A model generated the notes under the pieces. It was not told the DNA's origin. It was given only the letters and a program-made list of their open reading frames with translations, and did no database searches. The translations under genes were made by a program, and so were the position numbers. 43,355 nucleotides of DNA from NCBI GenBank assembly GCA_017436035.1, contig JAFSDV010000031.1:1-43355 (forward strand), given 5' to 3'. Source of the stretch: Oscillospiraceae bacterium (lineage in GTDB: Bacteria; Bacillota; Clostridia; Oscillospirales; Oscillospiraceae). This document shows, piece after piece, positions 9,273 through 41,281 of the stretch. How positions within the stretch are numbered: the stretch's first letter is position 1; the number at the start of each line of letters is the position of its first letter.

Positions 9273-9291
9273 GTACTCAATCGTATAACAG

Positions 9292-9422
9292 TCTTCAGGG
9301 CAGGGTGTAATTCCCGACCGGCGGTAAAGTCCGCGAGCACACATTGTGCTGAATCGGTGCAATTCCGATACCGACAGTAGACATACCGGTTTTCGGATGT
9401 CTGAAAGTCTGGATGAAAGAAG
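9292..9422 (+). promoter_or_regulatory. FMN riboswitch (RFN element)
   Basis: The conserved RFN blocks are readable in order: TCTTCAGGGCAGGGTG, ATTCCCGACCGGCGGTA, AGTCCGCGAGC, ATTCCGATACCGACAGT, and AGTCTGGATGAAAGAAGA. The first and last blocks pair to close the aptamer. It binds FMN and represses the downstream flavin transporter when FMN is plentiful. A terminator hairpin at 9450-9487 forms the expression platform. Confidence 0.95.
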
Positions 9423-9449
9423 ACAGCGGCTGTACGCCGTATTGTATTC

Positions 9450-39384: not shown

Positions 39385-40794
39385 TTATTTCTTTCCCCAT
39401 TTGTTAAAGGCATAATTTAGTGCATTGTCCTTTATGACGACATCTCCACAAGTTCTAAATGCGCCCTTAACTAAACCGTGAGTGCCATCCCAAGCATTAC
39501 AAGACGAGGTTATTCCTCCCAAATCCCAATAGTATGCATATAAGTTATTTGCACTGCCTCCGCTTACTGTAAGTTTGCCATAGCAGTAAACATTACCATT
39601 GACAGTTACATTATTAAAGGTTACTACGCCCGTAGATGTGATATACACATCTGTGTCAATAGTTTGGTTGCTAATTGTTTGAGTGTTGCTGATAATTAGC
39701 ACATCAGAAACGGGTTCGGTAGCTGGGGGTTCTGTTGTGGGAGGCTCTGTGGCAGGAGGTGCAGCAACAGTAACAGTACACTTAGCAGTATAGTTGCCAT
39801 CAACAGTTGTAACTGTAATTGTTGCGGAGCCTGCTCCCTTTGCTGTAATTTTGCCAGCAGAGGATACCTGTACAACAGAATTATCGCTACTATACCATGT
39901 GACACTCTTGTTATCTGCATTAGAGGGAGAAACATTTGCCGTTAGTTGCTGTGTATCTCCAACCTTTAGGCTCAATGTTGCTTTGTTTATCTGTACACCG
40001 CTTACACGGACAGGTTGAGGTTCTGTTGTGGGAGGCTCCGTTGTCGGGGGAGTAACAGTCTCCGTTTCTGTCTTACTCCCTTTTGTCCTAATAAACTCAT
40101 ATGAATCTACAAATATGGAGTTATCCTTTATTTGGATTTTATAGGTAGATAAATCACCATTCCAGTTTTGCAATCTTACCATTATACCGCTATTCCACGA
40201 AACACCTTCGGGGTGCTGCGATATATATTGGTGGGGATATATCACACAAGAATTAATGTGGAAATCATCTGGTCCGCTAACGCCAAAATCGGGGAGGCTA
40301 AAATTCTCCGCATTCATATTTATATGCGGACCATAACTGTCACCATAGTCATTATATTCAATGTCTATGTATACATCAGCATAGCTTTTTAAATACCATC
40401 TTCCAACAAGTGCCTTGGCCTGTTCTTTGATTTTATTAATGTTCTTATCCTCAGATGATTCGGTTGACGGAGGCGTTGTTGCAGGGGGTGTAGTCGTGGG
40501 AGGCGGCGTTGTCGGTGGTGTTGCAGAAGGCGGTGTAGTGGCAGGCGGCTCGGTGGTCTCTGTGGTCTCTCCGCCTGTTGTGCTCTCGGTTGTGCCCTGT
40601 GTGCTGCCCTGAGTGCTCTCGGTTGTACCCTGTGTGCTGCCCTGAGTGCCCTCTGTGGTGTCATTGGTGCTTTCTGTGGTGTTGGTGGTTTCTCCCGTGC
40701 TTTCGCCAGTGGGAACACCCTCCTCATTCTTACCACAAGCAGTCATTGCCAACAGCATAATAAAGGCAAGAAGCAGCGCAAATAATCTTCTCAT
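39385..40794 (-). CDS. Surface lipoprotein with Ig-like (BIG2) domain
   Basis: The start at 40794 is decided by GGAGGAG upstream and gives 469 residues. The lipobox LLAMTAC (cleavage before Cys, about residue 20) shows a lipoprotein. Then come a Thr/Ser/Gly/Gln repeat region (about 28-70), a Pro/Thr-rich stalk, a first globular domain (about 125-250), a second Pro/Thr linker, a bacterial Ig-like group 2 domain (about 262-345, VSGVQINKATLSLKVGDTQQ to TKCTVTV-like end), and a C-terminal beta-rich domain. It is the only gene between the two att-like copies and is expressed behind a structured leader RNA. The ligand is unknown. Confidence 0.85.
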   Translation of the reverse strand: MRRLFALLLAFIMLLAMTACGKNEEGVPTGESTGETTNTTESTNDTTEGTQGSTQGTTESTQGSTQGTTESTTGGETTETTEPPATTPPSATPPTTPPPTTTPPATTPPSTESSEDKNINKIKEQAKALVGRWYLKSYADVYIDIEYNDYGDSYGPHINMNAENFSLPDFGVSGPDDFHINSCVIYPHQYISQHPEGVSWNSGIMVRLQNWNGDLSTYKIQIKDNSIFVDSYEFIRTKGSKTETETVTPPTTEPPTTEPQPVRVSGVQINKATLSLKVGDTQQLTANVSPSNADNKSVTWYSSDNSVVQVSSAGKITAKGAGSATITVTTVDGNYTAKCTVTVAAPPATEPPTTEPPATEPVSDVLIISNTQTISNQTIDTDVYITSTGVVTFNNVTVNGNVYCYGKLTVSGGSANNLYAYYWDLGGITSSCNAWDGTHGLVKGAFRTCGDVVIKDNALNYAFNKWGKK

Positions 40795-40811
40795 ATCTTT
40801 CTCCTCCAATT

Positions 40812-40841
40812 AAAAAAGGTGCACAACCGAAGTCGTGCACC
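40812..40841 (-). terminator. Terminator inside the leader of the lipoprotein gene
   Basis: On the minus strand GGTGCACGAC, a TTCG tetraloop and GTTGTGCACC form a perfect 10-bp hairpin (40818-40841), followed by six T residues (40812-40817). It ends 5 nt before the GGAGGAG site (40801-40807) of the lipoprotein gene, so read-through must be controlled for expression. Confidence 0.88.
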
Positions 40842-40867
40842 CGAAAAATGCAGGGGCTCCGATTGCC

Positions 40868-40971
40868 GCGACGCAACTCCCCATATCCACACAGACATGC
40901 GAAAAGAGCATGCATTTTTACCAAATGAAAAATGCATGTGTGTGGTCACATGGGTTATTTAGTTGCGTCGC
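40868..40971 (-). ncRNA. Structured leader RNA, putative cis-regulator
   Basis: GCGACGCAACT (40868-40878) pairs with AGTTGCGTCGC (40961-40971). Inside, CCCAT/ATGGG (40880-40884, 40950-40954), CCACACA/TGTGTGG (40887-40893, 40939-40945) and CATGCATTTTT/AAAAATGCATG (40909-40919, 40928-40938) stack into one long rod. A promoter places the transcript start at about 40971, the first base of the stem. A terminator follows at 40812-40841. GGGG (next to the 3' arm of the first stem) and CCCC (40852-40856 region) could pair in an alternative fold. It does not match a riboswitch class I know. Confidence 0.6.
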
Positions 40972-40977
40972 AAGATA

Positions 40978-41006
40978 ATCTTACCACATAACTTTGTCAG
41001 TTGCAA
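40978..41006 (-). promoter_or_regulatory. Promoter of the leader RNA and lipoprotein gene
   Basis: On the minus strand: -35 TTGCAA (41001-41006), 17-nt spacer, -10 TAAGAT (40978-40983). A second reading (CTGACA with TATCTT) overlaps it. The predicted start coincides with the first base of the long stem. Confidence 0.55.
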
Positions 41007-41034: not shown

Positions 41035-41056
41035 ATTGCCACAAAAAATGCCACAA
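41035..41056. repeat. Pair of NTTGCCACAA repeats, right end of element
   Basis: ATTGCCACAA (41035-41044) and AATGCCACAA (41047-41056) are 12 bp apart, the same word, orientation and spacing as the pair at 39330-39351. They lie just left of the palindrome array. Confidence 0.65.
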
Positions 41057-41061
41057 ATTTA

Positions 41062-41166
41062 GTGAAATCGTGCTGACGCACGGTGAAATCAAAGGCTACG
41101 CCTTTGGTGAAATATTTTGTCTTACAGCAAAATGTGAAATTTTATCCGTCCAAACGGACGGATAAA
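41062..41166. repeat. Array of four GTGAAAT words, each followed by a different palindrome
   Basis: GTGAAAT occurs at 41062, 41083, 41107 and 41134. Each copy is followed at once by a perfect short palindrome: CGTGC-TGAC-GCACG (41069-41082), CAAAGGC-TAC-GCCTTTG (41090-41106), ATTTTG-8 nt-CAAAAT (41114-41133), and an 11-bp stem TTTATCCGTCC with loop AAAC (41141-41166). Repeat starts are 21, 24 and 27 bp apart. No base is left over between units. The constant word and the unrelated stems set it apart from REP elements and from CRISPR. The function is unknown. Confidence 0.8.
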
Positions 41167-41169
41167 GCT

Positions 41170-41281
<112 letters not shown>

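Follow-up and report, generated by a model that had tools for sequence, protein, structure and literature searches.

REP and REPIN repeats are dispersed extragenic hairpins located at gene 3′ ends, in which a short constant tag is combined with variable stems and which are linked to a protein acting in trans. In the intervening sequences of 23S rRNA, a hairpin is inserted into a stable-RNA gene and is accompanied by a protein of the PF05635 family. Stable DNA hairpins follow a GNNA loop rule. Hairpins of the d(GCGAAGC) type are extraordinarily stable as DNA (PMC10527192, excerpt). The target of a diversity-generating retroelement (DGR) is a DNA hairpin or cruciform with a free stem and a constrained 4-nt loop (5′GRNA), for which negative supercoiling is needed (Guo et al. 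2011; PMC3240598, excerpt). The DGR accessory protein Avd is resembled by PF05635 (PMC10053308, excerpt). Gut-1 was catalogued in 2010 as a noncoding RNA with no function assigned, and was described from environmental sequences only, all from the human gut (Weinberg et al.; PMC2864571, excerpt). Its accession RF01706 appears in a single paper of the open-access literature that we searched, a search on GTGAAAT palindromes returned nothing relevant, and the open-access titles and abstract openings listed contain no link between PF05635 and tRNA tails or Gut-1.

We analyzed a stretch of 43,355 nucleotides from an Oscillospiraceae bacterium (contig JAFSDV010000031.1 of assembly GCA_017436035.1), hereafter called the window. 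It contains four GTGAAAT words, which are spaced by 21, 24 and 27 bp and directly abut palindromes without a spare base (Table 1). Shuffling the window 100 times with dinucleotides preserved gives a chance expectation of 0.00 for the three-word pattern, and the four-unit array of words and palindromes proposed in an earlier note on this DNA is real, with its positions and spacings confirmed. Palindromes 1, 2 and 4 are perfect, with loops of 3-4 nt, as the note had it; the third is not, its stem enclosing an irregular interior of 8 nt, and may have begun to decay. The claim that the palindromes are unrelated sequences does not hold: slots of the types CGT..ACG, CAAAGGC..GCCTTTG and ATT..AAT recur in relatives, for example at loci L182 and L188. 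The growth of each unit by 3 bp is found in the window and is not a rule of the family, as slots in relatives measure ~9-20 nt and differ from copy to copy. A CRISPR array would require identical repeats of ~23-47 nt and unique, non-palindromic spacers. The array has neither, its repeat being 7 nt long and its spacers self-complementary, and this assignment had rightly been rejected.

Table 1. Features of the element remnant and the adjoining tRNA gene (window coordinates)
Feature	Position	Strand	Basis
Surviving element arm, four GTGAAAT words with palindromes	41062..41166	+	Pattern, shuffles, sub-threshold Gut-1 match
Word 1, GTGAAAT	41062..41068	+	Sequence
Palindrome 1, 5-bp stem, loop TGAC (other strand GTCA)	41069..41082	+	
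Word 2, GTGAAAT	41083..41089	+	Sequence
Palindrome 2, 7-bp stem, loop TAC (other strand GTA)	41090..41106	+	
Word 3, GTGAAAT	41107..41113	+	Sequence
Palindrome 3, 6-bp stem, apparently decayed slot with irregular interior	41114..41133	+	
Word 4, GTGAAAT	41134..41140	+	Sequence
Palindrome 4, 11-bp stem	41141..41166	.	Comparison with full elements L182, L188, L170, L187
Terminator hairpin, beginning right at the tRNA-Trp CCA end	41170..41205	-	
tRNA-Trp gene, cassette remnant at its 3′ end	41206..41281	-	ARAGORN; full elements at orthologous L187, L170

At a permissive threshold, the Rfam family RF01706 (Gut-1 RNA) matches positions 41060-41145 of the forward strand with 45.1 bits (E 7.8e-8). 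The gathering score of the family is 50 bits and relatives score 50-91 bits; the window array is thus a homologous Gut-1 arm without formal membership. The GTGAAAT linkers and three hairpins of Gut-1 correspond to one arm of a full element, which is ~220 bp long in relatives of the same genus. A terminator hairpin is followed by three GTGAAAT hairpins, a centre and three inverted hairpins, with about four words reading one way before the centre and about four reading the other way behind it. Some copies continue with a promoter-like stretch and an outward-pointing gene for a PF05635 four-helix bundle. When a full element is folded as DNA, GTGAAAT and ATTTCAC form paired rungs, with the hairpins placed at the junctions. 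In 144 of 171 cases (overlapping loci included), an exact complement of the 5′ arm GAAATAAATCC lies no more than 140 nt away, and the proximal arm can therefore close on itself. Gut-1 as catalogued differs from this element, which is an inverted two-arm repeat with DNA-like hairpins and a terminator, carries a partner gene in some copies and uses other words in relatives. Regarding the features of MITEs, the arms are inverted and no general target-site duplication surrounds the tRNA-linked copies (132 tails); one possible duplication, judged by eye, is present at L223. No larger autonomous element with genes between the arms was seen by eye in the RF01706 match coordinates of the genus genomes.

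Comparison with L182, L188 and the orthologous tRNA-Trp sites L187 and L170 reveals that the proximal arm is missing from the window. It was probably lost by deletion between GGACGG repeats, and palindrome 4 can be read as the outer and central arms fused once the tRNA-proximal half was gone. The window's own genome (62% complete) contains no PF05635 match, and the window copy is therefore a gene-less remnant. A second one-armed GTGAAAT array is located in the same genome at C21:60471-60546 (L121), ~135 bp from a tRNA-Leu end, and its other arm is decayed.

We compared the distribution of the element in a sample of 101 genomes of the genus, taken from a larger group. The GTGAAAT array pattern is present in 27 of them, and a reversed control pattern in none (0/101); RF01706 at E ≤ 0.001 detects 56 of the 101, with 0-30 matches per genome. 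In the order, 105 of 245 genomes and 61 of 126 genera contain matches, with none in the listed genomes of the same family's other genera, and a sample of the phylum yielded 3 positive genomes out of 299, our own among them. The spread, which takes in many gut bacteria, is thus patchy and multi-copy. Most retrieved loci were picked for containing matches; the scans over 40 genomes used stricter filters and limited candidates, and their match counts are lower bounds. A scan of genome contigs returned 119 loci, 64 of which have at least two palindromic units, and the remaining ones look like chance matches. In viral contigs we obtained at least 120 stretches, with few palindromic arrays among the 80 matches listed. 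Two of the genome-contig loci belong to bins labelled Akkermansia and Akkermansiaceae, where mis-binning is possible. A contig titled Akkermansia sp. MAG (L323) has a GTTATAT-type array with a divergent PF05635 gene and also a GTGAAAT array, and may represent either a real cross-phylum transfer or a mis-binned contig.

The arrays vary between relatives, both in copy number and in site occupancy. The whole element is present in one and absent from the other member of one orthologous pair, and a single tRNA-Cys site in seven genomes is occupied by Gut-1, ATGAAAT-containing, ATGATAT or other repeats. Between orthologous copies an entire distal hairpin is replaced (18 nt versus 11 nt), which bears out the suggestion that palindromes are exchanged behind a fixed word. 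Sister families, found through a word-agnostic scan, use the words GTGATAT, ATGATAT, GCGATAT, GTGATGC, ATGATGT, GTGAAGT, GTTATAT and GCTAAAT in the retrieved loci; the family-specific words can be written as RTGAAAT, ATGATAT, RTGATGY, RTGAAGY and GCTAAAT. One genome of the order contains three nearly identical Gut-1 arms with unrelated flanks (L441, L442 and L443), each ending in a GTAGGTTGGG...CCAACCTAC palindrome, which is presumably a GTAG-type REP adjoining the element.

The preferred position of the element is the 3′ end of a tRNA gene; the earlier note had proposed checking whether arrays cluster near tRNA-integrated elements, and they are indeed concentrated at tRNA genes. Such an end lies within 150 bp of about half of the copies in two sets (35/72 and 13/26) and of 21/69 in a third; repeated sequences had been removed before this count and before those of neighboring frames and terminator positions. 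A terminator was recognized in 124 of 146 element-bearing tRNA tails and starts at CCA+0 in 92 and at CCA+1 in 23 of them, together 115 of 124. Near-identical copies of terminator plus element are located at unrelated places of one genome (L223/L224) and behind different tRNAs (L225/L229), from which we conclude that the terminator moves with the element. One terminator stem arm recurs behind 7 tRNA kinds in the element-bearing tails, whereas in a smaller set of element-less tails (45 recognized terminators) no arm is found behind three or more kinds. Own-genome tRNAs without an element carry CCA-end terminators as well, and some of the stems may therefore be native. We also determined the orientation of the neighbors for 98 elements flanked on each side by a frame or tRNA at most 400 bp away, taking simple open frames as genes. 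At least one neighbor points inward in 95 of the 98, and divergent gaps hold 3 of the 98 elements versus 79 of 240 control gaps.

The idea that the array lies next to the end of a tRNA used as an attachment site has become less supported. In the window, ARAGORN calls a complete tRNA-Trp gene at 41206-41281. In 8 of 132 cases the tRNA end and the 150 nt beyond the element share a stretch of length 9 or more, compared with 3 of 132 for swapped partners; those at L207 and L212 are 18-20 nt long. The tRNA 3′ end is repeated within 420 nt downstream in 19 of 240 tRNA tails, and in several of them the repeat stands before the cassette and not behind it. An insert duplicating the tRNA end does exist, yet it looks like a separate repeat. 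In these 19 tails, the 12 nt that precede CCA are found again 100-340 nt downstream, mostly once more CCA-ended and without a second tRNA (examples are L236, L242, L253, L468 and L495), and at L236, L468 and L495 a word-palindrome cassette stands after the second CCA. At L207 (genome G002) the 3′ end of tRNA-Gln is repeated inversely across the terminator and again as a 20-nt direct repeat past the element, an arrangement that suggests fold-back copying. Two own-genome tails, those of tRNA-Tyr (L245) and tRNA-Leu (L271), have small repeats of another kind behind their terminators; one half of the terminator recurs beyond the repeat, giving the impression of an insertion into the terminator.

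Other features of the window were noted in passing. A leader-like structure at 40820-40985 on the reverse strand, ahead of a Big_2-domain ORF (39385-40809), has GCGACGCAACT/AGTTGCGTCGC arms and, before the start, a GGTGCAC hairpin that carries a T run and resembles a terminator; no Rfam family reaches its cut-off there, and the structure is possibly an unnamed attenuator. An FMN riboswitch is located at 9287-9428 (106.3 bits). The segment 43185-43245, in which ARAGORN calls no tRNA, resembles the first two thirds of a tRNA-Pro; it might represent a tRNA that was disrupted, or else an attachment site at the end of the window.

We next consider the protein partner. PF05635/TIGR02436, for which the solved structures 2rld and 2gsc (five chains each) provide relatives, is the commonest family among the neighbors of the element, with 14 of 408 neighboring frames, 13 of them pointing away from it. 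PF05635 genes follow a variety of tRNAs as well as ATGATAT and ATGAAGY elements, and protein identity among them tracks the word. Using presence sets for Gut-1, PF05635, Y1 and reverse transcriptase compiled from match listings, we found PF05635 in 91 of 105 Gut-1-positive versus 20 of 140 Gut-1-negative genomes of the order (p 1e-31) and in 52 of 56 versus 16 of 45 genomes of the genus (p 1e-9), where, as for all p-values given here, the relatedness of the genomes means that independence is overstated. Four of the 56 positive genus genomes are without PF05635 in the profile search, of which G063 matches weakly with another query. Of 30 loci retrieved after a protein-only search of the order, 25 have four or more words sharing one core in the 450 bp upstream, and 18 have a tRNA. 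Of 64 element-bearing PF05635 genes, 46 stand behind a tRNA end, representing 21 isoacceptors, compared with 3 of 37 unlabelled ones. When the word core is placed on a tree of the 64 proteins with a clear word (out of 101; a label needs three units or five raw words), the six cores require 6 changes, where the minimum is 5 and the mean of shuffled labels 28.9 (0/200); this is a quick tree built from few columns and with near copies included. The word core is thus almost fixed per protein clade; the leading candidates for reading the word are protein columns 27, 35, 72, 83, 93 and 95. Gene and element are physically linked, so their co-variation can come from shared descent; the one argument for recognition is the concerted change of an element's words. 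Arrays are absent beside 27 of the 30 best-scoring PF05635 genes retrieved and one of the three remaining loci is chance-like, indicating that the family has other roles; a further PF05635 locus adjoining an array is L493. As in the 23S rRNA intervening sequences, a PF05635 protein goes along with a hairpin insert in a stable-RNA gene. In contrast to them, the cassette is located behind tRNA ends instead of within 23S rRNA, and has several hairpins behind a word.

We investigated whether the hairpins are better described as DNA or as RNA. The same-genus set comprises 368 of 393 units (in chains of at least two), with 5 units of less than 60% pairing left out; the same chain and pairing rules applied to all loci gave 584 GTGAAAT hairpins. 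In these, 3196 of 3365 pairs are Watson-Crick and the closing pair is C-G in 540 of 584 hairpins. On the word strand, 267 of 361 triloops read TNC and 134 of 194 tetraloops TNNC, and the opposite polarity is rare (GNA in 4 triloops, GNNA in 3 tetraloops). Among ordinary hairpins from the same loci, the corresponding loops, counted in either orientation, number 72 of 829 and 35 of 772. The complement strand accordingly reads C(GNA)G or C(GNNA)G. In one slot whose stem is constant, the outer T and C of the loop are kept (28 and 27 of 30; 34 and 32 of 36), although the inner bases vary and the loop size itself is not fixed. Mismatches on the word strand are G.T in 25 and A.C in 42 cases, compared with 24 and 4 in tRNA terminators; the numbers are 2 and 13 in the TGATAT family and 20 and 24 in the same-genus subset. 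These data favor hairpins that are DNA-like, or that at least form on the strand opposite the Rfam model. RNA-type GNRA loops make up 79 of the 134 TNNC tetraloops (59%) on the complement, and folded RNA of that strand may therefore also apply. Both strands of 41055-41205, a stretch that takes in the tRNA terminator, fold as RNA far beyond shuffles (z = -9.8 for the forward and -10.7 for the reverse strand). Of the ideas in the earlier note, the two with the best support are a folded single strand and a ladder bound by protein.

The annotation of RF01706 as an sRNA suggests an alternative, in which Gut-1 is a small structured RNA made by tRNA read-through or from its own, putative promoter and its hairpins act as RNA. 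This would agree with the strong folding of both strands and with compensatory changes that keep the stems paired between orthologues. The modelled strand, however, shows the excess of A.C over G.T that tRNA terminators do not have, the C(GNA)G and C(GNNA)G loops form on the strand opposite the Rfam model, the two arms are inversely oriented, and copies stand behind many tRNAs in widely differing numbers per genome, which makes an RNA gene of this kind unlikely. The earlier note would have withdrawn its reading if the array were one ordinary structured RNA: on paper it is, under the name Gut-1, but loops, wobble pairs, inverted arms and partner gene all misfit an RNA gene. We consider it somewhat less likely still that the ladder is an operator or attenuator array of the PF05635 gene, serving an autoregulating promoter right behind the element and dispersed as a side effect. 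A promoter-like stretch and gene ~100 bp or less from the distal end and the co-variation of words with protein would be expected from such a device; many copies, however, have no PF05635 gene behind them (the family makes up 14 of 408 neighboring frames), and the terminator, the tRNA junction and the second arm, distant from the promoter, are left unexplained.

Three further explanations invoke known or general processes. DGR-like retrohoming, with PF05635 as Avd, a reverse transcriptase supplied in trans and hairpins marking the target, draws on the likeness of PF05635 to Avd and of our hairpins to the DGR target, which needs a hairpin or cruciform with free stem and constrained GRNA loop (excerpts of PMC10053308 and PMC3240598). 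A DGR target is, however, a single hairpin behind a variable repeat and requires reverse transcriptase, whereas we find a ladder of words and no such association in the genus, where RVT_1 occurs in 24 of 56 genomes with and 27 of 45 without Gut-1 (odds ratio 0.5, p 0.11). The array is thus not a DGR, carriers with nearly complete genomes (G001 and G011, for example) show no match to RVT_1, and we regard retrohoming as improbable. Movement by a Y1 (RAYT) transposase in the manner of REP/REPIN repeats would account for dispersed extragenic hairpins with constant tag and variable stems at gene 3′ ends, a neighbor pointing inward in 95 of 98 cases, and for a link to a trans-acting protein; Y1 is present in 56 of the 101 genus genomes and weakly associated with Gut-1 (38/56 versus 18/45, p 0.008). 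This association is far weaker than that of PF05635, and the two highest-copy carriers, G002 with 30 and G068 with 29 Gut-1 matches, have no Y1 match. No GTGAAAT-type array is found beside the divergent Y1 genes L291-L299. In contrast to REP/REPIN repeats, the element contains an internal 7-nt word about four times per arm, joins the tRNA at its CCA end, and has PF05635 and no close Y1 link as its partner. A REP origin, which the note had dismissed, is thus very improbable. The Y1-like proteins at L291-L299, ~150-200 aa long, are found in many same-genus genomes. Finally, the element could serve behind highly transcribed genes as a barrier to transcription in both directions or as a sink for supercoils, and owe its spread to ordinary recombination. 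This would fit cruciform-prone hairpins placed behind terminators and rarely between divergent genes (3/98 versus 79/240 control gaps). It predicts neither the partner gene nor the co-variation of word and protein, and we give it hardly any credence.

We therefore favor, as the probable explanation, that the window array is a one-armed remnant of a mobile tRNA-tail cassette, with the cassette's PF05635 protein, a relative of Avd, as the reader of its words. In many cases a full cassette directly adjoins the tRNA 3′ CCA end, and it carries its own terminator hairpin. Its palindromes may extrude as DNA hairpins or cruciforms, in which the stem is free and the loop and its closing C-G pair are constrained. 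The PF05635 protein is predicted to bind the word, or possibly the adjoining hairpin, and protein and hairpins together may help the cassette to be copied or inserted behind tRNA genes. Copies without the gene, including the one in the window, would have been moved in trans or be relics. Somewhat more tentatively, the cassettes may form a class of mobile elements without a recognizable transposase, recombinase or reverse transcriptase, in which the sole gene encodes an Avd-like PF05635 protein that would read a 7-nt word between extruded C(GNA)G hairpins.

What Rfam has listed as a noncoding RNA family since 2010 thus proves to be one arm of a repeatedly spread, DNA-like cassette that has two arms and a partner gene. 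If our explanation is correct, it would account for a family that has been without a function and would provide PF05635 proteins with a substrate. The co-variation of word and protein gives PF05635, an Avd-related family with no function assigned, a concrete candidate for this role. A single idea, that four-helix bundles act on DNA hairpins, would then join the rRNA hairpin inserts with their PF05635 proteins, the hairpin-dependent retrohoming involving Avd, and the palindromes at tRNA tails. That the fixed word and a small partner protein change in concert suggests a genetic element of a poorly known type that is able to spread.
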